This document shows positions 25,260-55,980 of a stretch of DNA of 64,000 bases, piece by piece. The DNA is taken from assembly GCA_029582265.1 (NCBI GenBank), contig CM055816.1, forward strand, positions 96,002,809-96,066,808, read 5' to 3'. The notes under the pieces are model-generated. The model searched no databases and was not told the DNA's origin. It was given only the letters and a program-made list of their open reading frames with translations. Positions within the stretch are counted from its first letter, which is position 1, and each line of letters begins with the position of its first letter. The translations under genes and the position numbers were made by a program. This stretch comes from Zoroaster sp. YZ-2022 (Eukaryota > Echinodermata > Asteroidea > Forcipulatida > Zoroasteridae).

Positions 25260-28200
25260 GGCGCTGTTTTGCGGCGACCAGTCGACTTGCTCACTTGCTC
25301 TTAATTTTGTTTTACCTTGTTACTTTTCTAGTTGTTTGTGTCTGCATAAATGATTATTTAATATATACACAATGGTTTATTATTCAACCAGCATCATCTG
25401 GATACGGTGTGCTGCATTACTGCTAGTTCTTCCGCTAGTTTATTGGTGTTTTGAGGACCCCAGTCAAGCATCGTTGCCGATCACCTATGACCGCCATTTT
25501 CTTTATCTGCTTGCCGATGCGTCAGCGTCCAAGTTAACACCAGCAGACTTGCCCGAATTCACACCGACAAGAGGTGAATCTACAACAAGTCATACCATGC
25601 CACGTCGGCGTGGCAAGCGTGGAGGAGTTAAACAAAGGGTAAGACGGAGAGCAAATAGACCCCCTCTTCCATGTTTAACTCTTGGAAATGTTCGTTCCAT
25701 AAACAATAAAATGGATGAAATTCGGGCACACACTAGATACATAAATGACTTTAGAAACTCCAGTGTATTGTGTTTTACTGAAACATGGTTGCACTCAAAT
25801 ATTCCTAATGATTCTGTTGATATTGATGGATTCAATTTGATTCGACTGGACCGCTCATACGAAAACACTAATAAAAGCCGTGGTGGTGGAGTCTGCATGT
25901 ATGTTAATAATCAGTGGTGTAATAACTTCAAAGTAAGGACAACAGTCTGCAACTCAAACATAGAACTACTTTGTGTGTCCTTCAGACCTTATTATCTGCC
26001 AAAGAATTTAATCAAGTTCACATCTTCCTTGTGTACATTGCACCGGATGCTGATGCAAATGAGGCAGCAGGTGTGATATATGACACAGTTCAACAAATGG
26101 AGGACTCATCACCAGACTCACCAAAATTCATTCTCGGTGACTTCAACCATTGTTACCTTAATGGAAGCCTTCCCCATTATTTTCAATATGTTGGCGAGGC
26201 TACAAGGGGAGATAACATACTTGACCGCTGCTATGGTTCAGTAAAGGATGCCTACAAGTCAATCATCAGACCAGGTATTGGCCGTTCTGACCATTACATT
26301 GTTCATCTTTTGCCGAAATATAAACAAAAACTAAAAACGGAAAAACCTCAGAAAAAAGTCATCAGAGTATGGAACAAGAAATCAATTGAAAATTTGCGAA
26401 CATGTTTTGAAATCACTGATTGGGAAGTATTTCTGAATGGATCGGGAAACATTGATGAGGCGACGGACGTAATCAACGAATATGTAAATTTCTGTCAAGA
26501 TCTACATATCCCAGTAAAGACCTCTAAATTATACCCTAACAATAAGCCCTGGATCTCAAATGAACTAAAAGCTATCCTAGCTGAGAAGAAACATGCTTTT
26601 AAAATGAAAGACCAAAATAAACTAAAAGTGCTCCAATCAAAACTGTCATCAACAGTTAAGAAAGCCAAAGAAAACTACAAGGAAAAAATGGAAAACTGCT
26701 TTAAGACAAATAATCCACGAGAGGCCTGGCAGGGTCTACAAACCATAACAGGTTTTTCTAAAAAGAAAAAACATGACTCATTTGCAAATTTAGAAAACCC
26801 TTTGTCTACAGCAAACGAACTAAATGTATTCTACAGTCGCTTTGACACTCAAAGTTTCAGCGATCAGATCTCATTACAATGCTCGGCTCTCTCCACTGAT
26901 ACAGAAAGCCAGCGTATTGTCATCAAAGTCAGAGAAGTCGAAAAACTGTTTAAGAACTTAAATCCCCGCAAAGCAGCTGGCCCTGATAGAATCTCTGGAA
27001 AGGTACTTAAAGTTTGTGCCAAACAACTGGCAGTTCCCTACTCAGTTCTTTTCCAGCAGTCAACAGACTCACATTTAATTCCATTTTGCTGGAAATCTGC
27101 CACCGTCGTTCCAGTGCCTAAGCGAGCTCGACCGTCCGAGTTAAACGATTATCGACCAATCGCATTAACTTCACTGACAATGAAATGTTTGGAGAGAATC
27201 ATTCTGAGATTTATTTTACAGCCGCTACTCAATCGTATTGATAAATTCCAATTTGCCTACCAACCAAACAAATCTGTAGATGATGCAGTTCTTTGTCTGG
27301 TGAATGCTATACAGCAACATGTCGATAAGGTTGGTTGTTATGCACGGCCACTTTCATTGATTTCTCATCTGCATTCAACACAATCCAACCTTACCGACTA
27401 CTGGAGAAGCTACAAAACCTGAATGTTAATCCATCACTCATTCTATGGATAAGCGATTTTTAAAGGATCGGACTCAGCGTGTATTAGTGAACAATACTTT
27501 ATCTGGACAAATAACAATAAATACTGGTGCCCCTCAAGGGTGTGTTCTTTCACCATTGCTTTTTATTTTGTACACAAATGATTACATCAATCACTCTAAC
27601 AATGTCAGTATTTTTAAATATGCAGATGACACTGTGATTGTTGGCTTTCTCAAAGATAGTGAACTGGATTATAGAAATACCATTCATAACTTTGTTACAT
27701 GGTGTAGCAACAATTTTCTGAAGTTGAATACTGAAAAGACAAAAGAGATGATCTTTGACTTCAGGAAGTTCAAACCTCATTTACATTGTATTACAATCAA
27801 CAATGATGATATTGATATTGTTCATTCCTATAAGTACTTAGGAACAACCATTGATAATACCCTATCATGGTCTGACCATTGTAAATCGCTCGTCGCCAAA
27901 GGACAACAGCGTCTATACTTTCTTAGGCAATTGAAATCATTCAAGGTCGATAAAACTATATGAAGCTTTTTTATACTTCAGTCATTGAGAGTGTCATCCT
28001 GTACAGCTGCTGTGTCTGGTTTAGTAGTGCAAAAAAGGGGGATTTAGTCAAAATTCAGAGAGTTGCTAAGCGGGCGGGTAAGATGTTTGGTAAAGAACAG
28101 GACATAAGCGCAATATGTCACGAACGAATTTTAATTAAGGCCAAGTCAATTTTAATCAATAATACACATCCATTGCATGATTTTTATGAGGAAATGAGGT

Positions 28201-28695
28201 CTGGTAGGAGGCTGAGAAGTCTGAAGTTCAGAACTAGTAGATATTTAAACTCTTTTTACCACACTCTATTCGTATTTTTTAATGATAGTCAGTAACTTGT
28301 ACAGGGAACAGAGGATACAGGCCGAGGGGGAGGAGGGGCTCCATGAAATAACATGAAATAGTGGTTTCCTGGATACAATGTTGTACATGTATTTGTATTT
28401 TTCAATGTGTTTGGTCCAATGATGTCTTCTGTTTTAGTCTGGTGAGTGGGTAGAGGTTTTTAGGGGTAGAGGTTTGCCGGATAAACCTACCCGAATTTCT
28501 CTTGTTTTTACTAAATCTTATTTTGTATGCCCTCTTGTGTATAATATATATGGTTTTTAGTTCTTTTTTTATTTTTTATTAGGTGTAATAATTTGTTTTT
28601 GTAAACAATTTTAAATATTTTTAATCTTATATATGAGCAGGATCGACAATACAAATTTCCATTTTAAGGACAATAAAAGATGAATTGAATTGAAT
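25260..28695 (+). mobile_element. CR1/L2/Rex1-type LINE with (TTGAA)n tail, broken
   Basis: The element is a LINE with one long endonuclease-RT frame, a 3' UTR, and a tail ending GATGAATTGAATTGAATA, the short 3' tandem repeat usual for CR1/L2-type elements. The 5' end is estimated, near a change to GGGCGCTGTTTTGCGG at 25,259. The 3' tail directly abuts the first coding exon of gene A, on the same strand. Confidence 0.8.
25372..28295 (+). pseudogene. LINE endonuclease-reverse transcriptase, frameshifted
   Basis: The endonuclease part shows LGNVRSINNKMDEI, LCFTETWLHSNI and GGVCMYVN, then (after a shift near 25,990) LGDFNHC near 26,135 and GRSDHYIVHL near 26,280. The RT part shows NPRKAAGPDRISGKVLK near 26,960, DYRPIALTS near 27,150 and FAYQPNKSVDDAV. 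A shift near 27,355 leads to [10 protein letters not shown] with the catalytic Asp. Another one-base loss near 27,460 is followed by GAPQGCVLSPLLFILYTND and KYADDTVIVG near 27,620. A last break at 27,961 precedes the C-terminal piece. At least four frame breaks make it a pseudogene. The catalytic Asp residues are still readable, so decay is not very old. Confidence 0.85.
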
Positions 28696-28716
28696 ACAGG
28701 AGTTTGAAAGATCAAG

Positions 28717-31700
28717 ATGGAAAAAAACGTAAGTAGCATATGATTAAATAGGTTAAATAAACCTGTTTTCTTTGTTTTTGAATAACATAAGATTTTGGTT
28801 GATAAAACATTCACATCTCACAGACCGATGGGCATTGCAGTATGGAAACACAATTTAAGCTCAACATTGTTGGAACATTTAAAAAAATTATATTATTTCC
28901 AAAAATGAAGGGACTTGTGAATAACTAATAAAAAGAAGTCATGCCTAATTATACCAACAAACAAAAGAAGTAATTAAAGAAAATTATTAATTTTATTAAT
29001 TCAATTAAGGATATCATTCTGATTGTCAAGAAGTGATCATAAAAAGTCACTGATCATTACAGAGTTGTAGTCGAGTCGCTTTGGTTTAGTCCGAGTCTCG
29101 AGTCACTGGGTCGAGTCCGAGTCATGAGTCACATGTTTAAATCATTTGAAAAAAGTGTCAAAAATGTAAAAGAATACTTAAATCAGACAGGATCACTTTT
29201 ATTGCTTGTATACAAAACAAATGTGCATGTTACTTTATTGTTACAATTTAATACTTTATATACATGTTTGGAAATACACACATAAAACCCTGAATCATAC
29301 ACTTTTATACAGCTTTCAGTTCATTTTTTTTAACCAATGCCATTTCCCCAGAATGTCTTTTCACTGAAGTAAAACTGAACAATTTGCTCAAGTAAACAAA
29401 TCTCGTTGACTGTAAAATGGATATTTACTATTACGAAGTACAGAGCACTGTACATAGACGGCCTACACATACTTAATATGTACAGGATGTGCCGTATGTT
29501 ATTCTTCGCCATGACGATCGGAAAATAAACATTGAAATTGTTTTTTATATTTTCAAAAAAGGTATTGTTGGTTTAAAAAATGTGACTCACAAGTACTCAG
29601 TGTCAAGTTCGAGTCATGATAGTTGAGACCGAGTCCAAGTCTTTTGCCAACATGACTCACTCGAGTCCTAGTCACCAAATCTGAGTCCTGGACTCGAGTC
29701 CTACAACACTGCTATTTAATATTTGTGCCATTTTAAAAACTATACAAAATGTAATACATATAATAACACATGGGCATATTTGTGTGTTGACCCAGTTAAT
29801 AATGGTCCTAATGAGCTAGGCAGAGACATGAATGGCCTCTTTATCAACTCTTGTCATAAAAGCCAATTACTAGCCTGATCAGTGAACTACAAATGTATCT
29901 CACCCCTATTTTTTTAAGGCCAATTGGTTTTTCAACCGAATACAAGCTGGTATACCAGATACAGGAACAAATCTGGAAGGGGATGAGACAGAGTCATTGG
30001 AATATCATCAGCAGGAGATCAGCGATGAAGATGTCACTACACAGTCAATCAACGACGACAACCGTTCAGAATATCACCATGAGGAGATCAGCGATGAAGA
30101 TGTCACCACACAGTCAATCAACGACGACAACAGTTCAGAATATCACCCTGAGGAGATCAGCGATGAAGATGTCACCACACAGTCAATCAACGACGACAAC
30201 AGTTCAGAATATCACCCTGAGGAGATCAGCGATGAAGATGTCACCACACAGTCAATCAACGATGACAAACGTTCAGAATATCACCATGAGGAGATCAGCG
30301 ATGAAGATGTCGCCACACAGTCAATCAACGATGACAAACGTTCAGAATATCACCCTGAGGAGACAGAAATCAGCCAGGAAGGCAACTCAAGCTCGAGAAA
30401 AGCCCACCCCCGAATGTATCTCCCTGTAAGTATCTCCCATTATAAATAACTTATATCCATCATTGCCAAAAACAAAAATTATGTTTTCACCCCGGTTTGT
30501 TTGTTTGTTTATGGACGGATTTCAATGAAACTTTGTGAGAAGGTGGATCATAGTCTAGGGAAGAAACGATTAGATTTGGTGGTGATCCAGATCTGGAATT
30601 TTTTGAAGGGTTTTTCATAATTGCTAGATAGGGCAAAGTGGACTGTTCAGCTTTCTGTATAGGTCTTCCTTTTTATCCCCTTTAATTGTTTTTTACCTGT
30701 TTCATCTACACATTTTAACTTAAATTCTTTCTTATTCAACTTCATTAGGGTGTTAGAAAATCACGGAGATGCAGCATGTGTGGGATCTTTTTTCTGTACT
30801 TGTCACAACACTTACAAAGGCAGCACCGCATAAAGGATCAAAGCCAACTGAAACAACTAATGGGAAAAGCCAGAGAGATGTGAGTAAATGGTATTTATTT
30901 ATTAATTGGTTCATTTATGTTGTTTGAAGAATTGTTTTGTGCGCCAAAAGATAACAGGTTAAAAATATCTGAGGGCGGATCGGACAGGTAAATGAAAATG
31001 ATATTTGATATTTCGTGGTTCACGGTCATACATGGCGCCGCAGTCCTTCATTACACTTTCTTTACCATTCATAAATAATAAGTTATACAAAATATTTGCA
31101 AAGAAGACATTAAAAATATGCATGCTGCCTGAGTCTTGGATTTATTTCACAAAAATTACATCTATATAGTAAAGATTTGACTTTAAAATTCAAACCCCGG
31201 TGCCCCAATTTTTTTGGTCATGGAAAGTTCAGGAACTGAGTCTAGTTGCTTATCAAGTGTTAGACTTAAATTATTTAAGAAACAACATTTTCAGCCCTGA
31301 AAATGATGCCTCATATTCTGGACATCATGTGTAGCCTGGGGGCTATGTGCTACCATGTGTTGATATTTAACTGTTTAATTTAAATTTTATTTTACACAGA
31401 GAACCAATAACCCATTCTAAAGGAAGATCAAAAACCAAGAGGGGATACCCATGCCCTTATCCAGGTTGCTACTCAAGAGGCTTAAAAAGAATGGATGTAT
31501 ATCTTGAATCGCAACATGGTTTAAAGGTACAGTCATGTGACAACTTGTTTTTAAACCAAATAGCAGAACACCCAGTATGACTTTGTAAAGTTGATTTTTG
31601 GGGTGTAATGAAAGGGTAGTAATACCTCAAAAAACACTGATGTCTGACTTTGCTTGACTGTCTACATTTGCATTAATTTCTTGAAATGTGATTCATACAT

Positions 31701-34700
31701 ATTTCAATTCATTAAAATTTACAGCGCAAAGGACCTCAGTACACCTCACTTCTGAAGAAAATAAATTTCAGGAGAGGTTCTCCTTTTAAAAGGTCTAATA
31801 AGTCTCCAAAGCAGCCTGCCGATGATAACTCCAGATACATGAAACCTTCAAAGGGTAAATTTATATTCTTTCAGAATTGTAAAATTAATTTATTCAGATT
31901 GTTTTCAGCATTCTTAGTTGTGAATTTTGTTTGATAGAACCAGAACATTGATTTTCCTAACAATTGTGTTTTTTCATCATTACTTATTTTGCCATGAAAA
32001 GTATATGGTTATTTTATACATTGTGACTGGTATTATCAGCTGGTTCATTATTTGTATTGCAACACAATGTACTTTGATTTTTGGCAGATTCTTGTTCAAT
32101 GATTTGCATACTAAAACCACTCTGGGCCATACAGAAATCTTTAAACAAAGTCAAACATCTATTCATTGCAACATGTATAAAAGGGATGGTTCATCATTGG
32201 TTTTTGGATGAGTACATTTATTCCAATCCTTTAATTTTCAAGAGAATATACAATCAACCAGTGAACACTTCATCACATAGGTGCTTACGTTTTTGGAAAA
32301 AAAATAAAAGAAAAGAAAAAAGTAAATAACAGTTATGTTCTGTTATGTTTTTGTAAACACCACGCTTATATTAAAATACAATTTTCAAAAATATGACAGT
32401 ATTACAGACAAGACTTTTTCAAGGCTATTGGTGCCAGTACCATCTTCATACTTTAAAAAGTAAGCTTTTTATAATCAACAATACCCAACTCTGTCTTTAA
32501 TTTGTACATTTAAAGATGCATCGCCTATGCTTTCGAAAAGGGGAATTTTTTAGAATTTTCTGAAAAAAAATTTGAAAAATGATATCGTTTCAAAACGAAA
32601 AACATAAATTGTAAATAAAAGTGGGAACTTATTCACAACAATTAGTTGCAACGCGTTGTATACACAGACAAGCACTGAACAAAGAGGCTGACACTGCAGT
32701 TGAGTGCGCGCATGCCACGCGCCATGTGCACAATACTTACAACATGCAAATTATTTCTAGGGACTGGTCGACAAAAACGCATTGTGTGTTTTTAATTAGT
32801 AATTGAATTTTTTACCGACGATGCATCTTTAAGCTTTGTTGTTTCCATTACAGAAGATGTTTTATCCTCCTTTGGAGAGTACATATACGCCTCGCATGGC
32901 TGTAACGAAAGTGCACGGATAACTGCTAAAGGGACTGTCAAGAACTTGCATCTCCTCAGCAACCATATGCAAGTTGAAATTCCTCAGCTTCTATCACCAC
33001 AAATGCCCCAAAAGTAAGAAAATGAGTTATGATAATTTTACAATGCAACTGTAACCAAGAATTTGTGGCCTTTGTAAGATTGTCTGTTAGCTTGGCTGCT
33101 GTATTCCTCTTCAATACAAGTATGTTTTTGATAAGCAATTCTTTATCATTTTCTGGATGGCTGCATTAGCATGACGAGTTGGTAAACAATTCAAAAGTAA
33201 TGAAAGAATTGCCAAAAACAGGTTCAAAATATTTATTACAAACAAGTGAAAATTTTAACAACTGGAGCGTTAAAGAAAATCTAATGAGTTCATCATCTGA
33301 GAGTGGGCTGCATAGAAAAATATTCACAATTGTTCATATTGTGATAAAATACTAAGATTAATAAGAATACTTCAGTAATTTTTTGTGGAATTTGTAATGG
33401 GAAATAAACAATGGGCCTGCATAGGACCAAAACACCAATACCCCAATATCCAGATTTGTTCAAAATATATTTTTACCTGTGTGGCAGGTTTGGTGCTTTA
33501 TCACAAAATGCACAATAGGTTTGTTATGCCGCCCCACTATAATGAATTCACCTGAACAAAATTGGAATGCATTTTATAGAAGTTGTTACACGTTCGTGTA
33601 CATAGCACTAGTGCACAACCTCTTATTACATGCATGTGAGGTGGCAGTATTTATTTTAAAAAAACTAAAAAACTAAAAAAACATCAGACTAAGAGATGGC
33701 ACACGTAGCCTATCTTTTCACAGAGAAATTTTTAAGCATTTTCTTTTTTCTTTCGCTCTTTCTCTATAAGAATTGTGACGTCTCTAAATAGCACAAACAA
33801 GCAACCAGGAACTGTTACTAAATACCTGCACAGTTTGAAAAAATTGTGCATGTTTCTCACTTTATACGATGAAAATGCCAAGTTCATGGAGGTTAGCCAA
33901 GTTGTCCTACACAAACTACTGCTGCTGGAAGACTTCATCAAGAGTACGAGATATCGTTTAAATGTCAGACAGGCAGAGCTGAAGTCAAAAATCAGTGGTA
34001 CGTGTTTGGAAAGTTTTGTCTTAATGACAAATTCGTCCTAGACCTATATAAATTTATTCTCATTATAAGTATCATCCCTTCTAATTCCACTACCACAATG
34101 CTTCAGTATATATATTTTTTTTGGGGGGGGGGGGGGGGGTTGTGCACTGTTTATGTAAACTTTATGCATCTGATGAGATTTCTTGTGCATATGTGCTAAC
34201 TTTAGCACAGAAATATACTAACTTTGCACAGTTTTCTTTTGTTACGCAGACTACATGGTTCTATTTAAATCCAAAAAACTATGTGACCATCATAACAGTG
34301 ATGTCGCAAGAAAATTAGCGATGTGTAATTTATTTATACAAGGTGCACACGTATGATTCTTTTAAATGAGATGCTAAAAATGTTCACATCAACCTGTTAC
34401 AAAGGCAATATGCTGTTACAAAGGCAATATGCATGTCTAATTTTTGTGGCACCCGTTTCTTTGTTTCTTAGATCTCATAATCAGTGGAGCAGCAGTGAAA
34501 AAAAGCCTGGAGAAACTTGACCAAGAGTTGAATAATTTCATGAATGGTATGTTTCCCCATTTTGTGCAAAAATTATTCCAAGCTATTGAACATCCACTTG
34601 AGTATAAATTTATGATGCTTACTTTATATGTTTTTGCTATGTTGCATTTTTTGTGCACAATGTAAGGGTAAGATGAGGTAGCTCATATTTATTCCTTAAC

Positions 34701-37700
34701 ATACTTTTGAATCAAGCAAAGGAGCTGCTCCCTGAAAATGCAGCCACTGGTTATTAAAGCACAGTTATTGTCTATGGTCTGCAAAAAATGCTCTAAATAT
34801 TGCTCAGCCAAACAGATACAAGACTGATGATGTGTTCTTTTTTGTATTTCATTTTCATGGTTTAGAGAATTCATCAAAACCCAACTGGGGAAACATCAGA
34901 AGGGTCAGAAATCTGATTATTCTGAAGATCCTTCTGACGCAGGCGCCAAGGTCTGGGGTGTTAGAAAATGCCACCCTTGGCCAGTACAGAAATCGCAAAA
35001 CTGTTGTTGCTCCAGAGACATTCGAGGAGGTGTACGTCATAGAGGTAATCGGGTCAAAATTAGAGGATAAAAACCACATGCCAAATCTTGCTTAAGGATA
35101 TTGCCTATGTATAGGCCCATGCCTACATATTAAAATAAAATAAACCATGTCTTTAGTTACTAACTGTTTATTATTTGGATTTGAGAAACTTGCAAACAGC
35201 ATCTGGCATTATTCCACATGATCACAGTCAACAAAAGAGTACCTAAACCTGTTTAGAACATGAACATTTACTAAAGTAACTGAAAAAACAAAAAAACAAA
35301 ACATGAAAGATAATATTATACAATTAATTAAATGCACCTATTCAGGTTGTACAACACAAAACTTCGCAGACTGGACCGGCAACTTTGATACTAAATGATG
35401 TTCTGGAAAGTCACTTGCGATTCTATGTCCGGCATTGCCGCCCACACACAAAGGACTGCCTAGGTATGTATATTAAACATTCTTATACATGTACCATGCA
35501 TCCCTAATTTGAAACATTTCTGTTTTTGATATAATTTTGTTTATTAATTATTATTTTAAGCAAATCAATCATTGTTGACAATTGGTCAATCCCAAAGTAC
35601 CCCCATTGAATATAAACCCATATACCTCATCCACTAGATGTCTACATCAAATGTGTTAACATAGAAGCTGCTTACCATGCAACGTTGCAAAATGGGGTGC
35701 AGATAAGCACTACAGTTTTTACTTCCATTCACTCAAACCAGTATGAAGATTTACAGTCAATTGAATGAATCTTAAAGGAATATTCAACTAATCTGACTGA
35801 CAGATCTGTGACCTATGGTGTAACCAAGTGGTATGGTCATTATACATGTATGGCAGATCATAAGTGATCTTAAATTGTCACTAAATTTGATACAAAGCTT
35901 GATGCTGAAAAAATGTGATCACTATTTATTTTATGCAACAAGAACATTTTAACAAAACATACTGCTTCTAAGTGTTGGTAGACTTTGGTAGCATATTGAA
36001 TAACTGAGCTTCGCTACCTCCCCGTTTCCATTCGGGGATATTCTGCTCTGTAATGGCCTAGTACAGTTTATTAAAAAAAGTTAAGTATGCTACTTTGATT
36101 CCTTATAATAATTTAATAGCACATTAAATCATTGATGTAATCTTGTTCTCAATGGTACATAGATAAAGACATAAGGGGAGAGAAGACCAATCTCTTCCTC
36201 GGTGCCAACGGAAGGCCAGTTTCTAAAATTAGCCAGGAGATAGAACGAACATGGAAGTCATTGGGCAATGTGGGAATAAAATGCACGCCAACTATATTAA
36301 GGAAAACTGCAGCCACAAAAGTAAGATTAAGTGAATAAAAGTGTTTCATAGTGTCTAAATTGGTACATTTATTTATAAATTATAGATAAATTAGTTTTAC
36401 CCAATTTAAATTTAATGGTTACCAATGTGTACCACTTAACTGCACCTTGGGCAGTATCAGCTGTTTGGCGTGTTGGGATCTGCGTCGATTCTGGTTCTTT
36501 TCAGGGCCGCCTTTTTCTCCAGGAGGGAGATTGGTGTTGCATGTGTTCTGCTGTTTGGTTTGTGCCAAATCGATATTAGTTTATTTTAATGGTTTCATTC
36601 CTTTTTATACATCATTTCTGCTGTGCGGGGCCTGGCTGGTCCCATTTTTTGTGTTTTTATTTTTAAATACTCTATACCATATATACTGAAAGTGTTTTAA
36701 ATAGTAGGCATTATTTTTTTATCCTCACTTAATTTTGTTTTTCTTTTCTGTTATAGTCCGTTGGGTTGTTCGAGTGTGAGGCACCTTATGAATCCTACTA
36801 TTATTATCATTAACTGCTTCATCACACTTGCCATACAATCTATAACTCCTGTTAATTATTATTATATTTATTTAATGATACAGAGACATTACTTCATATT
36901 TTCACAGCCAATTAATTAGGATAACTAAAACGAAAATTAATGATTACCATTTTTGTCTGTACTCTTGCACAAATATTTATTTTGAGGAAATTGTTTGTAT
37001 TCGCTCATGCAGATCAATGAAAACAATTATTTTTACATTTCTGTCACCCTGAACAGGCAGTTAGGGGACTCTCAAGGAAGGATGCCAATGCTGTGGCAGA
37101 GTTAATGGCACACCGTCCAGAAACTCAAATGATGTACTATGTTGCGGAGCAACAAACACGTGACAAGGTTCGGGCCTCTAGCAATCTCTCATCTATAATG
37201 CAATCGGTAAGGACATTCTGTGCATCTTGTAGGTTTTATGAAGTATCTGTTGAGTTAATTAAAAAAAATTGTAGAGTAGCATTTGTTGTGGGCTGCTTTA
37301 TGTAAACATTTTGAATACCATTTGAAGGTTTTTTGGTATTTCCATATAAATGACATCATGTGTGTGTCATTTGTGAAACTGATAAGCTGTTCCTTTAGGC
37401 ACCATTCTCTGTTTTAAGGAGACCACTTGACTGTCATGGACTAAAATGCTTTTTGTCTGAAAATAAAAAAAAAAATTATTATACAGAATAATGATTTGAT
37501 AGTCATGAGTTACATTCTTTATGTGAGTATTATATCAATTTAGATTAAGATGCAAACATGTAAATCATGAATACAGTAAATTATGTTCATATTTTGCAAA
37601 TAATTGGTCAAAAATGTTTGGCAATCCAGAATGTACACTGTGTCTTGTTTTGAAATTTCTATAGGATGATGCAGATCCCATGAGCGGTCTAGAAAAGGTA

Positions 37701-40700
37701 AGCTGATCTTCAGATTCCAGATAATGTTAGAGGAATTGTGCCTTGTTAATTCATAAAATAAACAAAAAAGGAAGATAAAAATCACATGAATTACTAATAA
37801 AAAATAATTTTGTTTTACCTTATGCATTCAAATTAAACTTTGATTTGCTATTTGTTTAACCATGAACAATTTCATCAACTAGTGTTTGGACAATGAGCTA
37901 TAATATCAATTTCAGGTGAACAAAGAAAAAATTACGAGAGATATCTTAGCCCTTAGGTGACAGTCTCCCGATTTTGTTATGTATATCTTTGCTCTTTATT
38001 ATGCACAAAATACTATGCCCTGTAATAAGATAAGGACTTTTTGCATTATCACAGCAACCATCTCCTTGGTTTGTCTCAGATAATAAAATAACTGAGGAAC
38101 AGTGCGTGGTTAATTGATTTAATTTTGCCCTACACCTACGTGTGTATTGCACTGTATACTCAGTACATTCCGAGTGTCTGTGATAAAACACACAAGCGAC
38201 TTGGGTGGGATTCGAACCCACAACTTCCTACCTAATAGTGCAGATGACTTAACTGCATGGTTATTTATCCAAAATTGTACACAGACAAAAATAATGTCAA
38301 CAAAATCTTAAACATTTGTGTATTTGCTCTTTCAATATTTATAAGGAAGCATTACAGCAGACATCTCCAACCTTGGATACAGTTGCCCCAAACACCTTGG
38401 TAAGTTCATTGTGCATTTCAAATTTCTGTCAATGAATACAAATTTTTAAGAATCACACTGACTAACCATTGCAGTTGGATTAGCACTTTGACATTTGTCT
38501 TTTGACGATCTTTGCTAACATCTTTTTGCTCTCAGAGTATTTAAACTACCACATTAGAATAATGAAGCAGCCAAAGAAACTGCTTTATTAAACAACAATG
38601 CACTATATATACACAAAGCTGCCAAATTAAATGTTGTCCAAGGGTGTGGTTATATATACATGTTTATAATAAACAGCTAGAGGAAATGGATTGAACAAAA
38701 TATGTGGATAAGTTTATTCTGGCGCAGCCTTGTAATATTATTTTGTATGGCATGGCACAAATACAAAAATAATAATTACAAAATGAAAACCATCTCGTCT
38801 AAACTGATTCATCTCTTTGTGAAAGATATGCGTTCTGCATCCTATTTTCTGTGCAATAAAAGGATAAATCACTTATGGTAAAATTCCATTAGCTCATATA
38901 CCCAGATGTCTGTGTCTGCATATGTGTCCACTTGTTGTGATGGCAGCCGACTGGAATTTTTGGTTAGTACATCACAATTAATGTTTGTATTTTGCATTGT
39001 ATAATACTGACAGGTCCCAGTGAATTCATTTTATAAATGCAAGCACAGTGCCAGCAACGAATCCCTGAAGAAAAGATTCACCAAAGAGCAGGAGGTGCTG
39101 CTGATAGAATCGTACAAATCTTACAAATCCAAAGATATTGGTGTTGGATTTATGGATGCGGTTAGTTTTTTTTTTAATTTTTTTATGATTAACTGATCAT
39201 TGCCCCTAAGTGTATCACATAATGGCTTGGTGAGGAAGGTCAAAGTCACGACTTACAGCCAAGCCTTTGAGAAGCCAGGCCCTGGCTACCTAGGCTCCCT
39301 AATCTGTCTTTTGTGATTCCTAATCCTATAACAACAACAGTACATTCCAATAAACATAACCTGGGCTTCTGGAGGCTTAGCCAGCCAAGAGTGAAACTCA
39401 TTATACTGACTGCAAAGGTGTCAGTCAGATCCGTGTTAACAATAAGAGATATTTGAGATCTATCCATTGGTAAAAGTTCTTCAGCTAGGGGTTTAGGCCT
39501 GAGCAAAGCTAGGGCCTGGCCACGCTTCTCGAAAGCTTGACTGTACCAAGACTTTGGCCCTTCTCCCTTAACTGTTGTACAAGTATTGCGCTAATCACAG
39601 GCATGCTGTATTGACTGGAGTGCATTTGGAAATAAAGACATTACATTTTGTTTCTCTATATACAGGCAATTCTCATCAAAGAGAATCATATTCAATTTGA
39701 CACCTACACAGCAAAACAGTTGGCCGACAAAATTCGCCATACCATCGACAACCTTCGATTTAAAGGTAATGAACAGCAATAGCCACAGTATACCATATCT
39801 GTTTGGATACATGTATATCAGCTCGTACGTCCTCGATCCAAGAGAGTAAAGGTTCCCTGCGTGATTATTGGGATATAGGTGGTAGTTGGGTACATCCTCA
39901 TCTAAAGGGACAATATCGTCATGATCATTAGGGAATGGAATCATAGTGCTTGTACCTATAAATATCCTTGTACATAATATCCTGTTGTATCATACTTCAT
40001 GTCCAATTGTTCACTGGAATCCATGGGTGGACATTTCCAGTAAGAGGTTCGGGGCCCAGCAGTTGACCAATATATATTTTTTTAAATAAAGAATTAACAA
40101 TGATCAAAGAAGACACAACAATAGTAAGTTACAAGGGTGGGGACACACCTCCCTACTTGTTTTGGCCTCTTCCAGCTTTTTTCATATGAATCCATGCCAC
40201 TGATTCGAACAGTACCCTAAGGATGTATTTTGATATCCATTTGTGTTTCAGATCAACACAACTCAACCCAGGCATGCCCAAGGTAAATATTTGTATTAAA
40301 ATAAAATTGCTTGTAAATGTTAATGTGATTGTCAAAGGTAAGAATTGTTCAGATACCTCTCCAGTTTGATTTTTGATCAGTCAGGTGTATGAATTTTAAC
40401 TTACGTTGTAATTCATCTTTGCTGTATAGGGGTACATTTTACGGTATACTTTGTTTAATTTACACATTTGGTACTTTAATTGTTATGGGACTTAACAGTT
40501 GGAGTAAATTTTAGTAAACATACATCAATCACAATGTGGCATTTAAACCGAGTCCCTAATAAAGCACTTCAAATGGTTTTGTAAATGCAGTAATCTTTCT
40601 TAAAGCATTAGCATGAAAATCATGTCATAGACTCATTGCCCACTCCCATAGCTACATATAGTTGACAGAAAACATCTTACAGGGGATACAATTTCTTGTA

Positions 40701-43700
40701 ATGTGCTTTTTGGAATGTCGCTATATGCAACAAGTTGATTTGACATGACTCCATTTAAATGTGCATAGGGAAACTTTCATGGAACATTTTTTAAGGGAAG
40801 TGGATGCTATTTGAAATCTTAAATAGGTAGATATTTATTGGATTTATTTTAAATCTTTTAACAGGCCAGGACATCAGCATGTCATTGTTACTATCTCAGA
40901 TGACGTGTAAGTATAACAATAAATTTTGGTTTTCAAAACTATTGAAACCTGGATGGATGGACCTTGTGTTCCACTTATATTTTTGTTCGGTTTTGGATTT
41001 GACAGAGCTCCATCATTCTGTGTTCTGTAGTTATGTTTTATGCCATGGTCGAGCGGTTTAGTGTGCATCGGATTTGTGTTCTGATGGCTGAGGAGTCAGA
41101 ATGTGGGTTCGAATCCCAACCGCGACCATGGTGCTTGTGTCCTTTGAGCAAGACACTTTGCCATAATTGCTTCTCTCCACCCAGGAGTAAATGGGTATCT
41201 GTGAGGCAAAGTTGGTTGTTGTGTTTGATTAGCCCTATATGCGCTGTAATGGCAGCAATTGAGCTGTATACTCCCCAGGGAGCTGAGATGATTTCAGGAA
41301 TGATTTATGAGCCTGATGAGCAGGGGTAATAATATAATGCGCCTTGATGAGCACCCGTTTGGTGGATACGTGCGCTATATAAGTCCACATTATTATTATT
41401 ATTATTAATCTGTATTACACAAATTATGGTTAAATGAAACATTCCTGTATTCAAGGAATGTAAGAGGTAATCCCCCTCCTCCATTTCTGCTGGTAGAATA
41501 ACAAAGTGGTTGCCAATGGTGGTCACAACATGTAGGGGTGAGGGTGCTAATACTGCATACACCCTTATTGTCAGTGCTAAACTTGAGTTTTGTGTTAAAT
41601 ATATTATGTTGTTGGAACCCCTAAAAAGGCTGTTTGAATTTGTCGTAAAATAAATCAACAGGTCTGTCAAAAGTGTTAACAGAAAATGTTGGCTTCAAAA
41701 ATAACTTAAGTTTGACTCCAAGTAATGTACCAAACTTCATAGCCGAGTTGTTAAAATTGGGGTTAAGAACCAAGTACATGTATATAGCTATTGTGCCATG
41801 GTCCCATCATGGTGTCAATATACTTAAGGTGTCCAACTTTTTCTAAATGAGACACAGGCCTGGCACTGCATGACTCAACCATATATATCTTACTCTTCAC
41901 AAGAAAAGCATTACATTGTGAAAAATGTAAAAGAAACATTTAATGAACAAGTCTTTTTGATGAATGAAATAATTGTTGTTTTTCTTATTGCAGTTTAGCA
42001 CCAGTCTCTTTCCGTAAGGATGTTGGAGAAGTATGTGCAACGGAACATAGCATACCTGAAAAAGGGTGTTCTCTGGCAAGGTATAGTACCTTAATTACGT
42101 AGTTCTTAGCCCACTTCTAATGTGCTAATATAAAGAAGTTTTAGGGTTCTCCCAAAGTTCTTCAAAGTTTGATGCCATGAAATGAGGGTCCAGAGTAGGT
42201 TTTCCATTGGATGTTTATTTTCATTGTAGATGGTCTATTGTGTCAACGTGGGCTTCAATCTAAAAACCAAATATCATAAATTAAAATGTTTTGTTTAGTG
42301 TGGGGTTTCAACCCGGGTTATAAGGACCCTACTATCAGTTGAGGTAGAAATTTGATATTTAAGAACTCAAGGGTAGGGATACCTGTTTCTTGAGCATTTC
42401 ATCCAGGTTGTTGGTTACATGCTAGGTCCAAGAAGTGTACAATCAGTCATACAATTGTACAATGAGCATGTGTTAAATTACATTTGGCATTCCACATCGA
42501 CATTGATGATCAGTATTTCCAAGTGTGGAACTGTTAAGTTCTTCAGTATAAATGCTGAGAAGAATATTACAAATGTCATGCCCACCTAATTAAAATGGCC
42601 CAACCGTTGAGTGGAACACTAAAAAAAAAATATGTTTTTAGTATTCTGAATTTAAATGTACTGCCCAAAAGAAAATCTTATTAATTATTTACAAATTGTC
42701 GAAATGAAAAAGTGTCAGTTACAATAAAATTATATTTAAACACTGCATGGTGCATTTGTTTTGAGGCAGGCGGAAAGTTGGAGGCATTGTCTCTACAAAC
42801 AAGGAGGCAGGAGCCGAGGTAGGCATAATTTAAAAAAAAATCGGAGTGCTGTATATATTACCTTGACTGGTCAATTCAAATACATTCCACCCTTGTGATT
42901 GTAGTTGTACTTGGAATCTCTTGTAATGAAGGTGTTTGTAACATAGTGAGCTGGTGGACACCATGTTGGTTACATTTTTGCTTGGATTATATAGTATTAT
43001 AAGTTCAGTTGTTTGTTGGTTCCACATATTATGTCTCAACTGTACTTGATAATGATGTTCCTATCTACTTGCTGATTTGTTCCTGATATCTTGATGATTT
43101 GTTCTTGCTGTACACTTGCTGATTTGCTCTTGTTATACACTTGCTGATTTTTTCCTGCTATCTTGCTGATTTGTTCTTGCTATACACTTACTGATTTGTT
43201 CTTGCTATAAAATTGCTTATTTGTTCCTGATAAATGTTGCTATACACAGTTCAGTGAAGTTCACCAACATGCAGTTGATAACGCTACATTTGTTGGTATG
43301 TACTTCAGTCATACATGTTTATGTGTTCTAATGACACATGTTCTTACCACAGTTGTTGATATTTATTCTAAAGTAATTATTTGAACACCCCATGTGACCA
43401 GTAAGCATCAATAAAATATATAACCAATATATTTATAATTAGTAATGAATGATGTTGGATTGGGCAAGGTCCATGAAGGTACTTTTTTGGTAAAGCCATG
43501 CAGTTCACTGATACATAATGTATTGGACATGACACTACAGTTTGTCTTTTCACCAGATTTGCATATTGGAGACGAAAGCTTGCTGATTGTTTTAATACAT
43601 TTGTTTTGTAGCAAATCTTCGATATCATGTTTACGGACCTCCTTTTACAGAGGAGCAGCAAGAGGGCATCCTGTTGAAACTAATGAATGAGTTCAGCCCT

Positions 43701-44248
43701 GGCAGTACTCATGTAAGTTTATTCAGACAGTTTCTTTGGTCTAGTTATATCTTTTAATAAATAAAATGTCAAAACTCTCTAAATTTTGTAACACATATTG
43801 TGTGCTAAATATTTGGGGGAAAAAATTAAAATAAAAAAATTAAGCAAATCCCCTTCTAAATAAAATCAGTAAGTGTACCATCAGATATGAAATACAAAAG
43901 ATCTTACAGGCATTTTCCAACATGCTAAATGTATCTTGCATGCAACTGCAAATGAAATATTAATTTCGTCATTCAATTTGAATTAATGCTGATAAGATTT
44001 AAGTTGATTTATACAGTATATAATATACAGTATAACATTGTGCATATATTTATCATATGACCTCCACTTGGTTTTATAGGTTGGCCTATGAATTGTTTGT
44101 TTCCTATCATTTGCAGCTCTTGGATTACATATCTAACGTACTGTTACAAGAAGCAATGGTGAAAGTCTGCCAAGATGCACTCAGTATCCCCAAAGCCGAG
44201 GCACAAACACTTTTAGAGCAAAAGGGAAGAAACTTGAATGAGGTTTAG
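28717..44248 (+). CDS. Gene A: zinc-finger / tyrosine-recombinase / Myb-like multi-exon protein
   Basis: Model of 23 coding exons, 931 residues, all junctions in phase: 28717-28728, 29919-30425, 30749-30879, 31400-31526, 31725-31854, 32854-33013, 33771-33997, 34472-34546, 34866-35044, 35346-35463, 36163-36320, 37057-37206, 37665-37697, 38346-38399, 39014-39160, 39666-39765, 40252-40282, 40865-40906, 41994-42080, 42770-42818, 43250-43295, 43612-43712, 44117-44248. Residues 5-173 are acidic with five 23-residue repeats. C2H2-like fingers lie at 181-199 and 235-256; the second has Tyr251 where gene B has His. The tyrosine-recombinase domain spans about 356-658. A Myb/SANT-like segment lies at about 708-769, and 840-931 is an unrecognised helical domain. 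The start is MEKN followed by a donor, matched by MEND in gene B. It may be a domesticated Crypton-like recombinase or a member of a mobile family. Expression is unknown. Confidence 0.75.
29060..29711. mobile_element. Nonautonomous element rich in GAGTC, hAT-like ends
   Basis: The ends CAGAGTTGTAGTCGAGTC and GACTCGAGTCCTACAACACTG are inverted, with further GAGTCCGAGTC / GACTCGAG words inside both ends. CAGTGTTGTA-type termini are typical of hAT elements. I could not see a clean 8-base target duplication. It lies in the first intron of gene A and has no transposase. Confidence 0.6.
29997..30363 (+). repeat. Five 69-base coding tandem repeats in gene A exon 2
   Basis: The unit encodes EEISDEDVTTQSINDDNSSEYHP and recurs five times with small changes (N/K, H/P, T/A). 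The unit length of 69 bases keeps frame. All three forward frames are partly open, but the acidic frame fits the flanking splice phases and the YLP|GTAAGT exon end shared with gene B. The repeat has an acidic, disordered character with possible phospho-acceptor serines. Confidence 0.85.
33771..37206 (+). other. Exons encoding the tyrosine-recombinase domain of gene A
   Basis: Exons 7-8 encode a helical core-binding-like part (TVTKYLHSLKKLCMFLTLY). Exon 9 carries LLTQAPRSGVLENATLGQY with catalytic-type Arg485. Exon 10 carries VVQHKTSQTGPA with the beta-hairpin Lys521. Exon 11 ends TPTILRKTAATK with Arg602; the usual His of HxxR is Thr599. Exon 12 carries ELMAHRPETQMMYYV with His627 and Tyr635/Tyr636, Tyr636 being nine residues after the His as in phage integrases. 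Five of the six typical positions are kept, so strand cleavage is conceivable. The family's known job is site-specific DNA breaking and joining through a phosphotyrosine link. Confidence 0.7.
38111..38265 (-). mobile_element. tRNA-derived SINE, copy 2
   Basis: Same family as 24,128-24,265. It has the shared end TAATTGATTTAATTTTGCCCTACAC in plus orientation and GGGATTCGAACCCAC (B box on the minus strand) near 38,209. It is inserted in a gene A intron, opposite to transcription. The A-box end is weaker than in copy 1. Confidence 0.75.
41035..41407 (+). mobile_element. tRNA-derived SINE with (ATT)n tail
   Basis: The head CCATGGTCGAGCGGTTTAGTG holds a Leu-type A box, and GGGTTCGAATCCC near 41,107 is the B box. 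A conserved-looking body follows (TTTGAGCAAGACACTTTGCC; CTCTCCACCCAGGAGTAAATGGG; GTGCGCTATATAAGTCCA) with an (ATT)n tail at 41,386-41,407. This body type is common in marine deuterostome SINEs. The open frame at 41,033-41,329 is a by-product. It lies in a gene A intron. Confidence 0.85.
43066..43250 (+). repeat. ~27-base intronic minisatellite TTGCTGATTTGTTCTTGCTATACAC
   Basis: About seven imperfect units fill the end of the intron before the exon at 43,250. The last unit provides the splice acceptor region (GCTATACACAG). Confidence 0.85.
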
Positions 44249-45221: not shown

Positions 45222-45595
45222 CCATGGTTACTCACGTTACATTACTGTGTATTGGGTCCACTCTTAACTCCATAATTTCCTTACTGTCATATTTCAATGA
45301 TCATTTTTTTCACAGAAGTTGCATTATACCCAGACCGTACTTGGCACAAAATAATAGTTTCAGAAATTTGTTATATGTATGCTATATAAGAGAAAAAACC
45401 TGGTTACATTACATTTTTCGAACATGTATAAAATGTCACGTTTTCTTTATATGTAGCATACAACATATTTCTGAAATTATTCTGTGCTAAGTATGGTCCT
45501 GGGTATAATGCAACTACTGTGAAAAACTGATGAGATATTATGGCACTAAAAGTGGGCACAAAACCTCAAAAAATGTAACATGAGTAAACCATGGA
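45222..45595. mobile_element. Foldback element with ~150-base arms
   Basis: The left arm runs CCATGGTTACTCACGTTACATT ... AGTTGCATTATACCCAG ... TATGTATGCTATATAA. The right arm is its imperfect reverse complement, ending AATGTAACATGAGTAAACCATGG. Most of the element folds on itself and no coding capacity remains, so it looks like a MITE. Confidence 0.8.
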
Positions 45596-46439: not shown

Positions 46440-46888
46440 GAGTACAATTCATTACGTTTTGCAAAAGAGAACAATATATAAGCATTTTGAAATTCCAAGA
46501 TATTGCTCAATTCTCACTGGGCAATTGCTTAACCACAGAATGACAACTTCTTCCAAATTACTAAAATATAAAAATACAAACATTAATGAAATGTTATCAA
46601 TGAATGGAATGATAAAATACTCTTAACAATTGACACAAATCTAAACACTTTAGTTTCTGCATGAAAAAATTATAAAACGTTTAATATCATAGCCAAATAA
46701 AAGTCATATGCACATCATGTCATGCAGAGGTCAATCAACATACTGACAAAAACCACAGAGTGACAAACTTAAGATTGCTCAACCCACAGAGTGACACAAA
46801 CTTCATACCAAATAATGTCAGTCTGTGGTTGTTGATGTCAATTGCTCAACCACTTACTGACACGCTGTGCACAAAAATATAGGCGTGG

Positions 46889-46890
<2 letters not shown>
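46440..46890 (+). repeat. CCACAGAGTGACA motif cluster, left part of repeat copy
   Basis: CCACAGAATGACA (46,533), CCACAGAGTGACA (46,753 and 46,784) and the opposite-strand TGTCAGTCTGTGG (46,816) cluster here. The phrase TCAATCAACA...CACTTACTGACA is shared with 55.48-55.89 kb, but with clear divergence, unlike the part after the (CT)n tract. Confidence 0.65.

Positions 46891-46891
<1 letters not shown>

Positions 46892-46938
<47 letters not shown>
46892..46938 (+). repeat. (CT)n microsatellite
   Basis: A pure CT tract at the left edge of the near-identical part of the duplication. Confidence 0.95.
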
Positions 46939-46941
<3 letters not shown>

Positions 46942-47816: not shown

Positions 47817-47908
47817 ATTAACCCTAACTCCCTAGGCATTGCATTAAAACAATAAAAATCCTTCAAAATCCTCCAACTGGCTTTGTTGTCTAGGGAGTTA
47901 GGGTTAAT
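47817..47908. mobile_element. 92-base hairpin with perfect 19-base arms (copy 1)
   Basis: ATTAACCCTAACTCCCTAG at 47,817-47,835 is exactly mirrored at 47,890-47,908. The arms contain TTAGGG-like words, but as a defined hairpin this is a tiny foldback element rather than a telomere repeat. Confidence 0.8.
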
Positions 47909-50072: not shown

Positions 50073-52949
50073 ATGGAAAATGACGTAAGTAGAATTCAAT
50101 CCCAAGCAACATTTTTTAATTATGTAGGCCTAGGCCTACACAAACCTAGGCTTAAAGTTTAACACAGATAATCAGTCCATTTGATTGAATAATTTGGCTG
50201 ATTTTTCTTAGAAATTAATCAACAAAAAAGAAGCAAGCTGTCCACCATTAGGTCATCAAAAGTATTTAGGCCTATATTTTTTTAAATTTAAGTTAGGGAG
50301 TGGATATTTTGCCGGCACCAGCTAACATTTAGTAAACGATATAAAGCTGGAACGGCACTGAATATGCGCAGTGACTGTTTTTTGGGACTTGGAAATTTGA
50401 CCGTGACAAATGTTAGTCTGGTTCCGCACCAACATTGTCATTGTGACTTTGTATTAACGAGATGGGATTCAGACCATTTACAATGTCGGACTTTATTTCC
50501 CTTTAAAAAAAAATTCCTCGGGTGCCACAAATCAGAAAAAGAAAAGGTAGTAGGCCTACTTACTATCCATTTAAATGAGTACATTTTTAATAATAAAAGA
50601 ATCTTATTTTTTGGGATGAAAAATAAATCGAAAACATGGTGAGGCTCGATCACAGACGGTGCTGGTTGAAAGGCCGTGATGCTGTCCACTGTGCTACGTG
50701 GTAAACTAAAACGTTATATAATGTTGGCTACTCGTGTACGCGTCAAAGAGGGCTCTATATGATCTGCCGGCTTAATAGTGTTTAATAAAAGTTAGCTGGT
50801 GCCGGCAAAATATCCACTATCTTTAAGTTATTTACATGTCTGTAGGCCACTGTAGGCCTTGCTAGTCCAACAACAGTTTGCATGACATGGACATAATCCG
50901 TGTCATGGATACCGCCATCTTGAATTAGAATGCATGAATGAATTTGGCGATCACGTAACATCTCATATGGGGCAAACACATATACTGAGACGCAATAGAA
51001 ACTTAACCACTTTTTCGACCTTAAATTATCAGTAATCACAATGCACAAATGTAATATGTGCACTCGCGGTGAAGTGGATACAGATGGGATCGAGTACAGT
51101 GGACAAAACGTGGACATTTCCTCAATAAAATGCCAATTCATTTTTAATCCAAATTGTTGTGTTTTATTTTGAACCATTACAATTTTATGCTATTCCAAAA
51201 CAAGTGGTAAGTTTCTATTGCGTCTCAGTATAGATTGCAAACAAAACAAGTGTTTCCCCCAGAGAGACCATGATTGCCGAATTCAGTCAAGATGGCAGTA
51301 TCCATGAAACGGCTTATATGTGTAATGTTGTCATGAACAGTGATTTTTCCTTTGTGTAATTTGCATCTTCTCATCAATTTAATTAGGCCTTTCAGTTGCT
51401 CAGCAGCATTGAGGAAGGTGTTTTGGAAAACAAGGACAACGACAACGACCTTCACCTATCGGACCAAGAAAAGGACCACCTACCAGTAAGTTTTTACATT
51501 TTATGTATTTTATGTGTATAATATATTAATATTTAATTTTAGTTGGTAACATGGAAAAAGACTAATTAGAAATCAATCCTAATCACATTTTTTATGTACA
51601 TTTTGGGTCATGGAGTAATCCTTCCTTCATGGTTGGGCCTAGGCTAGTTAGGCCTAAATGCTTCATTGTTTTCTGATCGATTAATCAGGCCATTTGATTG
51701 AATAATCAGGCAATTTTATTTATAAAGATTAATGAACAATCAAAAAGCAAGCTGTGTGCCTCTAGATCATGATAAAGAAAAAATTTTCTTGAAAACTATA
51801 GATGCATGTCACCTACTATTTGTGCCTTTCAACTGATGTAGGTCGGGTTGGTGTTGTTCAACAACAATTTGCATGATAATAGCATGTGTAAGGTGTATTT
51901 TTTTCCTTTGTGTAATTTGAATATTTTCCTCAATTTAATTGTGCCATTTAGTTGCTTAATGACGATGAGAAAGAATTCTCCGAAGAAGATGACAGTGTGC
52001 CAGAATTAAATGACAGTTTGCCAGAATCATGTGCACCACAAAAAAAGAGCTACCTACCCGTAAGTTTTTACATTTTTGTGCAAAAACAGAGCAGGACATG
52101 GATTAGACATGATTTTTTTTATCAAACTCAGTCTCCCTTTTCACTTACCATTAATGTTTTATTGGCTTTGGAAGTTAAACCCGGATAATGCTTAAAGGTA
52201 TGATACAGGCTTGGCTATAAATAATCGCCCTGTAAAATGTTTTCATCTGTAATCCACTAGAAAATTTTTCCTTTCTCAAAACAAATGCACCGGATGGTTT
52301 TGATTGCAGCCCTCAAAATCTCAGTTTATCAGATAGCAGCTCTCGGGGACCCTGAGAACAATATTTATCTTTTTTATTTATTTTTATTTTTTTATTAAAA
52401 AAAATTTTTTTTTAATGAAAAAAGCATTAGGTCCTGAAATCAAAGACTGGTAGACTAAAATCAATAACTCATACAATTCACTTTACTTTACAGGGTCATA
52501 GAAAGCAACGGATGTGCTCGATGTGTGGCAATTATTACATGTATCTGTCTCAACATTTAAGGCGGCAGCACCGTGTGAAGGAATCTGCCACGCTCAAAAA
52601 GTTGATGGGGATAGCCCGCGAGAGGTAAGGAAACCGTTCTTTTATTGTTCACATAAAGGTGCTGCAAAATTAATTTAGTCAATAATTAGTCAGTAAAACA
52701 CCATTTTATGTACTTTCTATGTATCAAATCAGAGATCCAATAGAGCACTCAATGAAGCAGGGAATTTCGAAGAATATCAGAGGATACCCCTGTACCTACC
52801 CCGGATGCTACGCCAGAGGAATTAAAAGGCTTGATGTACACTTACATAGTCAACATGCATCTTTAACTAAAAAAAACATTTTCTTAGGTATGATTATAAT
52901 AAGCCAGTACGGGTCATTCCGTATACTTCAGGCATGCATGTCGCACTAA
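50073..52949 (+). CDS. Gene B: acidic zinc-finger paralogue of the gene A N-terminus
   Basis: Coding exons are 50073-50084 (MEND), 51396-51485 (or from 51387), 51952-52059, 52494-52624 and 52733 onward. The 131-base finger exon has the same length and phase as in gene A, and the first exons (MEND|GTAAGT, MEKN|GTAAGT) correspond. The two acidic exons look like a tandem duplication of one exon with its intron: both follow GTGTAATTTG...CAATTTAATT and end (H/Y)LP|GTAAGT. Finger 1 is CSMCGNYYMYLSQHLRRQH. Finger 2 is CTYPGCYARGIKRLDVHLHSQH with a complete C2H2 set. No recombinase exon was found before gene C. Reading through the last exon stops at 52,947-52,949, giving about 185 residues. A donor at 52,888 exists but leaves a phase unlike gene A. 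It is either a finger-only protein or a truncated copy. Confidence 0.6.
50277..50835. mobile_element. ~560-base element with ~55-base terminal inverted repeats
   Basis: GTGGATATTTTGCCGGCACCAGCTAAC near 50,300 is mirrored by GTTAGCTGGTGCCGGCAAAATATCCAC near 50,790, and the similarity extends outwards (TTTAAGTTA) and inwards (AGTAAAC). No transposase lies inside. It sits in the first gene B intron. Confidence 0.8.
50875..51350. mobile_element. Large palindrome with inner TATACTGAGACGC foldback element
   Basis: The inner element 50,981-51,232 has arms TATACTGAGACGCAATAGAA and its mirror TTCTATTGCGTCTCAGTATA, with TA at both tips as in Tc1/mariner-type insertions. The outer DNA is also inverted: CATGGATACCGCCATCTTGA near 50,915 mirrors TCAAGATGGCAGTATCCATG near 51,290. 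It lies in a gene B intron. Confidence 0.75.
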
Positions 52950-53289
52950 CTTGCAAGCCCGTGTACAGCCCGCTGATTGGGTAAATTTTCTGCATTCCTA
53001 TTGTTTGTCCCAAATGACCTGTATATTGTAAAAAACAATTAACAGACGAGAAATTCTTAAAACTGTGTATAAAAATAGCAGGTTAGCAAATATTTTTCAA
53101 GTTTAACAGTCGATCGTATTCCGGTTTATATCTTACTTTAGTCGCTGCTGTTTTACAGATGATGGTTGGTGTGCATCTGATTCCTGTGTTACCGAAAGAC
53201 TGCCATGTCCTCTCTGCTTCTTGGCTTATTTTAGATACCGAAGTCCCATTGGGGCACAAAAAGAGATGAGAAGTGTCGGCATTATAGTC

Positions 53290-54405: not shown

Positions 54406-54409
54406 GTGA

Positions 54410-55908: not shown

Positions 55909-55980
<72 letters not shown>

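Follow-up and report, generated by a model that had tools for sequence, protein, structure and literature searches.

A 64,000-nucleotide stretch of the genome of the sea star Zoroaster sp. YZ-2022 (contig CM055816.1 of GenBank assembly GCA_029582265.1, forward-strand positions 96,002,809 to 96,066,808), hereafter the window, carries a long spliced gene that appears to combine short zinc fingers, a tyrosine-recombinase domain and a Myb-like part in one protein. With its exons joined by script, the gene gives an open frame on the forward strand from 28717 to 44248 in window coordinates, comprising 24 exons and 2,889 bases (962 codons and a stop), with phases consistent throughout and with 23 introns of 129 to 1,190 bases, all of the GT-AG type. 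The initial annotation of this DNA had proposed an intact, phase-keeping gene over the same interval, and the rebuilt frame agrees with it in all but the exon count: its 23 exons and 2,796 bases are the present model without exon 8, whose 93 bases may be included or left out with the phase kept. Residue numbers given here are those of the 962-residue model and lie 31 above those used previously.

Gene model and its support

Exons 1, 3, 4 and 12 have homologous counterparts in paralogous copies within the window, and exons 10–13, 16–17 and 23–24 align to an uncharacterised protein of another sea star, Patiria miniata (LOC119732635). Exon 2 is placed by its position and acidic character, and for exons 5–9, 14, 15 and 18–22 the support consists of splice sites and an open frame. 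Exon 8 is a doubtful member of the gene: of the 22 exons that were scored (2–23) it alone has a coding score below zero, and among 117 in-frame decoys taken from the introns (acceptor score of at least 2) there are 5 that outscore it. Its total score of 11.0 is above those of exon 11 (9.6) and exon 22 (6.7, the lowest), and the XerA profile score described below is 28.2 bits with exon 8 and 26.7 bits without it. A further candidate exon at 37916–37956 was discarded, its length of 41 producing a phase clash with the next exon in a frame check by eye.

Neither exon 8 nor any of the short exons 14, 15 and 18–22 has homology support, and some decoys outscore exon 8; both points would fit an over-joined frame, in which the recombinase gene (about exons 5–24) and a zinc-finger gene (exons 1–4) are separate transcripts or some of the short exons are false; the paralogue, which has exons 1–4 alone, and LOC119732635, which lacks the finger part, point the same way. 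We nevertheless consider this very unlikely, as LOC119732635 joins the catalytic domain, the Myb-like part and the C-terminal domain in the same order and the phase is kept throughout the frame.

Table 1. Exons of the Zoroaster gene and of its paralogous copies in window coordinates
Feature	Position	Strand	Content and support
Exon 1	28717..28728	+	MEKN, 12 bases; the paralogue has an exon of the same length at 50073, likewise followed by gtaagtag
Exon 2	29919..30425	+	Acidic; 5.3 copies of a 69-base (23-residue) tandem repeat
Exon 3	30749..30879	+	Zinc finger 1, residues 181–199; 65% identity to paralogous exon, both 131 bases
Exon 4	31400..31526	+	Finger 2, residues 235–256; Tyr replaces one His ligand
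Exon 5	31725..31854	+	Basic linker; splice sites and open frame
Exon 6	32854..33013	+	Presumed start of recombinase core-binding part; splice sites and open frame
Exon 7	33771..33997	+	Presumed helical core-binding domain; splice sites, open frame, coding score
Exon 8	34250..34342	+	Doubtful; not in the initial annotation
Exon 9	34472..34546	+	Splice sites, open frame, coding score
Exon 10	34866..35044	+	First catalytic Arg516; aligns to LOC119732635
Exon 11	35346..35463	+	Lys552; aligns to LOC119732635
Exon 12	36163..36320	+	Thr630-x-x-Arg633; aligns to LOC119732635; inverted paralogous fragment at 53137–53289
Exon 13	37057..37206	+	His658, presumed nucleophile Tyr667; aligns to LOC119732635
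Exon 14	37665..37697	+	Splice sites and open frame
Exon 15	38346..38399	+	Splice sites and open frame
Exon 16	39014..39160	+	Myb-like part, first half; aligns to LOC119732635
Exon 17	39666..39765	+	Myb-like part, second half; aligns to LOC119732635
Exon 18	40252..40282	+	Splice sites and open frame
Exon 19	40865..40906	+	Splice sites and open frame
Exon 20	41994..42080	+	Splice sites and open frame
Exon 21	42770..42818	+	Splice sites and open frame
Exon 22	43250..43295	+	Splice sites and open frame; lowest total score
Exon 23	43612..43712	+	C-terminal domain; aligns to LOC119732635
Exon 24 with stop	44117..44248	+	Weakly RTC4/PWWP3A-like tail; aligns to LOC119732635
Paralogue exon 1'	50073..50084	+	MEND, then gtaagtag as in exon 1; 12 bases; found by eye
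Paralogue acidic exon 2a'	51387..51485	+	Open frame, phases match
Paralogue acidic exon 2b'	51952..52059	+	Open frame, phases match
Paralogue exon 3'	52494..52624	+	Zinc finger 1; 131 bases as exon 3
Paralogue exon 4'	52733..52887	+	Zinc finger 2; 3' end uncertain
Inverted paralogous exon-12 fragment	53137..53289	-	Donor site at same place; second catalytic Arg replaced by Cys

The recombinase domain and its homologue in Patiria miniata

LOC119732635 (P0001; 483 amino acids) is the one homologue that we found, and among annotated proteins it forms a single-sequence cluster on one contig. It was the sole match of the recombinase-domain query among 3,201 scored candidates and again of a two-row alignment query among 7,997, and the full-length protein matched none of 7,991; the candidates scored in these searches were those sharing exact 5-mers within the length range, up to a cap in the full-length and two-row searches, and more distant relatives may exist. 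Two pattern scans of viral contigs gave 1 and 59 pattern matches, none of them confirmed as a relative. The Patiria protein aligns in the same order over exons 10–13, 16–17 and 23–24. Its catalytic domain is identical at 106 of 187 residues (57%); for the Myb-like part the count is 16 of 61, for the C-terminal domain 23 of 63 and for the linkers 8 of 36 and 8 of 58. By these counts the putative recombinase core is the best conserved of the comparable parts. The Patiria model begins within the recombinase domain, leaving the fingers and the core-binding part without a counterpart, and its start appears truncated.

Within this core the catalytic residues of a tyrosine recombinase occur in order and at the usual spacing, as R516, K552, R633, H658 and Y667, with the histidine of the HxxR motif replaced by Thr630, and all six residues are identical in LOC119732635. 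Tyr666 and Tyr667 are adjacent; the latter is taken as the nucleophile by its spacing from His658, a distance of 9 residues that equals the one from H270 to Y279 in Escherichia coli XerD. The residues first named as Arg485, Lys521, Arg602, His627 and Tyr636 are thus all present at an offset of exactly 31, and the alignment bears out the accompanying statement that the HxxR histidine alone (there Thr599) is replaced. The NCBIfam profile XerA_Arch matches residues 303–688 in two stretches with an E-value (E) of 1.3e-6 and 28.2 bits against a curated cut-off of 220, and Pfam Phage_integrase matches with E from 0.019 to 0.0016 and 15.2–18.6 bits against a cut-off of 27.1, so that neither recombinase profile reaches its curated family cut-off. 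The controls, a reversed sequence and two shuffled ones, had no recombinase match, one of the shuffles giving an unrelated match at E 0.053; a sequence search of the PDB returned no recombinase among its matches and a search of PHROGs no match. We accept a recombinase domain in the predicted protein because the profile match is in line with the order and spacing of the motifs and with the conservation, and its fold is very probably that of a recombinase.

Several results weigh against this assignment or against continued activity. The XerA_Arch match drops to E 0.002 when the catalytic part is used alone, hhalign gave the domain a probability of 0.4% and E 0.14, and a thin profile of four E. 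coli recombinases (XerD, XerC, FimB and FimE) scored it at 1.0 bit, under several of 1,000 shuffles, although its alignment of the box II motifs was the expected one. LOC119732635 matched no recombinase profile model, and Foldseek, queried with a poor model of that protein (mean predicted local distance difference test score of 45), returned no match at E ≤ 0.001. Around the active site, both sea-star proteins have Val in place of the acidic residue three positions past the first arginine (R148 and E151 in XerD), and the positions up to four residues away from R, K, R, H or Y show just a mild excess of identity between the two over the rest of the domain (30/44 versus 76/143; Fisher p 0.055). 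The inverted copy of exon 12 has Cys in place of Arg633.

Paralogous copies and the age of the gene

To find paralogues, tblastn was run against the window with the whole protein as query, and against the gene-masked window with individual exons as queries (exon 2 rows excluded). A partial paralogue on the same strand, 21 kilobases downstream, repeats exons 1, 3 and 4 in an open frame whose phases agree with those of the gene, and an inverted fragment corresponds to exon 12 (Table 1); other tblastn matches outside the gene are at chance level. These relatives share about 65% amino-acid identity with the gene. Direct repeats of 2.7 kilobases at 46521–49205 and 55516–58209, 91.5% identical, flank the partial paralogue. 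They were considered as possible ends of an element, and inspection of their right-hand edges revealed nothing telling.

For exons 3 and 4 against the paralogue, the proportions of synonymous (pS) and nonsynonymous (pN) differences are 0.81 and 0.24 (82 codons, 43 and 39, with 39 of the 42 of exon 4 alignable), and for exon 12 against the inverted copy they are 0.80 and 0.22 (51 of 52 codons). Because synonymous sites are saturated, no ratio of nonsynonymous to synonymous rates (dN/dS) is possible, but the predicted protein has clearly been under constraint between the copies while its synonymous sites saturated. Exon boundaries and phases are shared at saturated pS, and therefore the first exons, and selection on them, are old; judged by this comparison, the predicted first exons and their boundaries are older than the duplication. 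The initial annotation had suggested long residence as a host gene, which is well supported by the boundaries and phases shared with so diverged a paralogue and by a sea-star homologue whose recombinase core is the best-conserved part. We regard the gene as very probably real and under selection, and as probably owned by the host rather than mobile.

The presence of several relatives within 64 kilobases (the gene, the 5' copy at 50073–52887 and the inverted fragment), the other mobile elements nearby and the retention of nearly all recombinase residues would also suit the recombinase of an intron-bearing mobile element, Crypton-like or of a new kind, or an immobile remnant of one, with the copies as products of transposition. 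That origin is decidedly improbable: the copies are old, as their saturated pS indicates, the larger lies in tandem on the same strand with exon boundaries in common, and the window holds just these two old relatives and no near-identical copy. Among annotated proteins, moreover, a single Patiria protein was found, and animal Cryptons, as described in the excerpts of PMC3212892, have no C-terminal domain. Since they have no terminal repeats either, in the same excerpts (PMC3212892), the absence of such repeats is uninformative.

Flanking domains

Finger 1 has the form C-x2-C-x9-H-x4-H (spacing counted by eye) with all its ligands kept in the paralogue, and finger 2 the form C-x4-C-x10-Y-x4-H, with Tyr where the paralogue has His. 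Classical C2H2 fingers are spaced C-x2-4-C-x12-H-x3-5-H; neither finger of the gene shows this spacing, and neither was matched by Pfam. Finger 1 is a good short finger, and the earlier zinc-finger label is weak for finger 2, which has lost one ligand. The acidic repeat array of exon 2 (95% matches) is absent from the paralogue and looks recent.

The Myb-like call is weak. Three sub-threshold Pfam matches fall in this part, two of them unrelated (E 0.015 and 0.039), and the one of Myb-like kind is to a GeBP-like DNA-binding domain (E 0.042); no Myb/SANT profile matched it above cut-off. In LOC119732635, residues 438–480 match PF20886 (PWWP3A/B C-terminal; E 3.9e-5) and residues 446–482 match PF14474 (RTC4-like; E 0.01), both below the gathering cut-off, and the tail of the Zoroaster gene matches RTC4 over almost the same stretch of the profile, again sub-threshold (E 0.14). 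The tail weakly resembles the C-termini of RTC4 and PWWP3A, a likeness overlooked in the initial annotation.

Catalysis and proposed function

We tentatively read the locus as a long-resident, probably host-owned, multi-exon gene for a DNA-binding protein with a recombinase domain that perhaps still cleaves DNA; whether the chemistry itself is still active appears to be a nearly balanced question that leans slightly to the negative. The protein would run from an acidic N-terminus through two short zinc fingers, the first good and the second degenerate, a core-binding and catalytic recombinase module and the Myb-like part to the tail. The fingers and the Myb-like part would choose a DNA site, the recombinase module would clamp it, and Tyr667, with R516, K552, R633 and H658, would form a tyrosyl-DNA link, by which the protein could nick and rejoin, or recombine, particular host sites. 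Thr630 would be expected to weaken rejoining more than cleavage.

Decay as the source of Thr630 was rejected, the inverted exon-12 copy and the Patiria protein carrying Thr too; because the latter keeps it at the HxxR position, we take the residue to be inherited. In Cre and Flp, the excerpts of PMC4381057 report, the HxxR histidine is less conserved than the two arginines, and a small number of recombinases have tyrosine or glutamine there; Cre stays active in several His-289 variants, H289A included, and Flp His-305 mutants cleave without completing recombination (PMC4381057). Given these variants, the Thr shared by the two sea-star proteins and the inverted copy need not prevent cleavage and might slow rejoining. 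The earlier suggestion that catalysis remains possible therefore seems fair, R, K, R, H and Y being kept in Patiria and Cre H289A being active in that account (PMC4381057). The Val that replaces the acidic residue past the first arginine counts against full activity.

This Val, the loss of the HxxR histidine in both sea-star proteins and the no more than mildly raised identity around the active site are consistent with a domesticated recombinase that binds DNA or chromatin and cuts no strand, its active-site residues holding the DNA backbone and the fold. Such a protein would act as a regulator, as DUF3504 proteins such as ZMYM2 are thought to do, and the fingers, the Myb-like part and the weakly PWWP3A/RTC4-like tail resemble chromatin factors. 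We hold this possible but doubtful, since Tyr667 and both arginines are kept in Patiria, whereas the human DUF3504 domains, as described in the excerpts of PMC3212892, have all lost the tyrosine and the second arginine. Bolder than a domain that perhaps still cleaves DNA, and unlikely, would be a host-encoded, still active animal tyrosine recombinase kept for a cellular task (programmed DNA rearrangement, site-specific nicking or topoisomerase-like relief), with Thr tuning the enzyme toward cleavage and slow rejoining.

Other features of the window

Two non-long-terminal-repeat (non-LTR) retrotransposons lie upstream on the forward strand. The nearer (25354–28700) matches RVT_1 below cut-off (E 5e-5) in frames that look broken, and its 3' end, which carries a short TTGAA repeat, is some 20 bases upstream of the gene's proposed start codon; the other (13960–19660) has a CCHC knuckle, an endonuclease-like part and RVT_1 (E 4.5e-18) in overlapping frames. 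A transfer RNA gene (65 bits) occupies 23484–23556 on the forward strand, and 500 N at about 8050–8550 mark an assembly gap or masked stretch. Directly downstream of the gene is an imperfect 220-base palindrome (45306–45526, 78% self-complementary). Farther on are tandem arrays at 53870–54408 (145-base unit, 3.7 copies, 99% matches) and 58248–58635 (20-base unit, 19.3 copies) and, on the forward strand at 59479–61993, a gene or element, perhaps spliced, with an integrase core domain (PF24764 rva_4, E 4e-56).

Comparison with known systems

Among the open-access literature matches listed, as far as their titles and abstract beginnings go, none describes the gene. Its closest counterpart, LOC119732635, shares the R-K-TxxR-H-Y set and the Myb-like and C-terminal parts in the same order, and differs in a model without fingers or core-binding part. 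Uncharacterised proteins of fish, coral and mollusc may carry a similar (T/S)xxRK...LMAH...YY pattern, none of them retrieved by our searches; if they do, the gene belongs to a broad animal family represented by unnamed entries alone. With the PWWP3A/B C-terminal and RTC4-like domains the likeness lies in the tail and is sub-threshold, and no PWWP domain is among the profile matches listed.

The DUF3504 genes (ZMYM2/3/4, QRICH1, KCTD1, KIAA1958 and WOC), which are Crypton descendants according to the excerpts of PMC3212892, are likewise multi-domain animal genes with a recombinase-derived domain. By the same excerpts (PMC3212892), the vertebrate Crypton-derived genes described so far have lost the catalytic tyrosine, all human DUF3504 domains lack it and the second arginine, both of which the Zoroaster gene has, and some birds may have kept the activity of a recombinase of Crypton origin beside the ATF7IP gene. 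DUF3504 (PF12012) is not listed for our protein at E ≤ 10, a result to be read knowing that the filters of HMMER discard the majority of matches with E greater than about 0.1 and that the presence of the model in the Pfam copy was not checked. CryptonA transposons also bring a tyrosine recombinase into animal genomes, that of the sea urchin included; the Zoroaster gene has 24 exons, of which exons 14–24 encode about 270 residues partly shared with LOC119732635, and it is set apart from animal Cryptons, which have no C-terminal domain, by description and not by sequence. We file it neither as a Crypton nor as a DUF3504 gene because the tyrosine and both arginines are kept, the C-terminal part is long and no DUF3504 match was found.

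The gene's anatomy is like that of a tyrosine recombinase, and in the comparison with XerA, XerC and XerD the profile match covers the second half of the catalytic domain. The XerD motifs HVLRHAFAT, LLGH and Y stand at the same places as TILRKTAAT, LMAH and YY in the gene, with a His-Tyr distance of 9 in both; the differences are the gene's Thr for the HxxR histidine, its Val for the acidic residue and scores far under the curated cut-offs. A many-exon gene of long residence, with the tyrosine and both arginines retained in two sea-star proteins, opens to testing the question of whether animals have an active tyrosine recombinase and which DNA would be its target. The Thr that both proteins carry in place of His is, in addition, a naturally occurring variant of an active site that has been studied closely.

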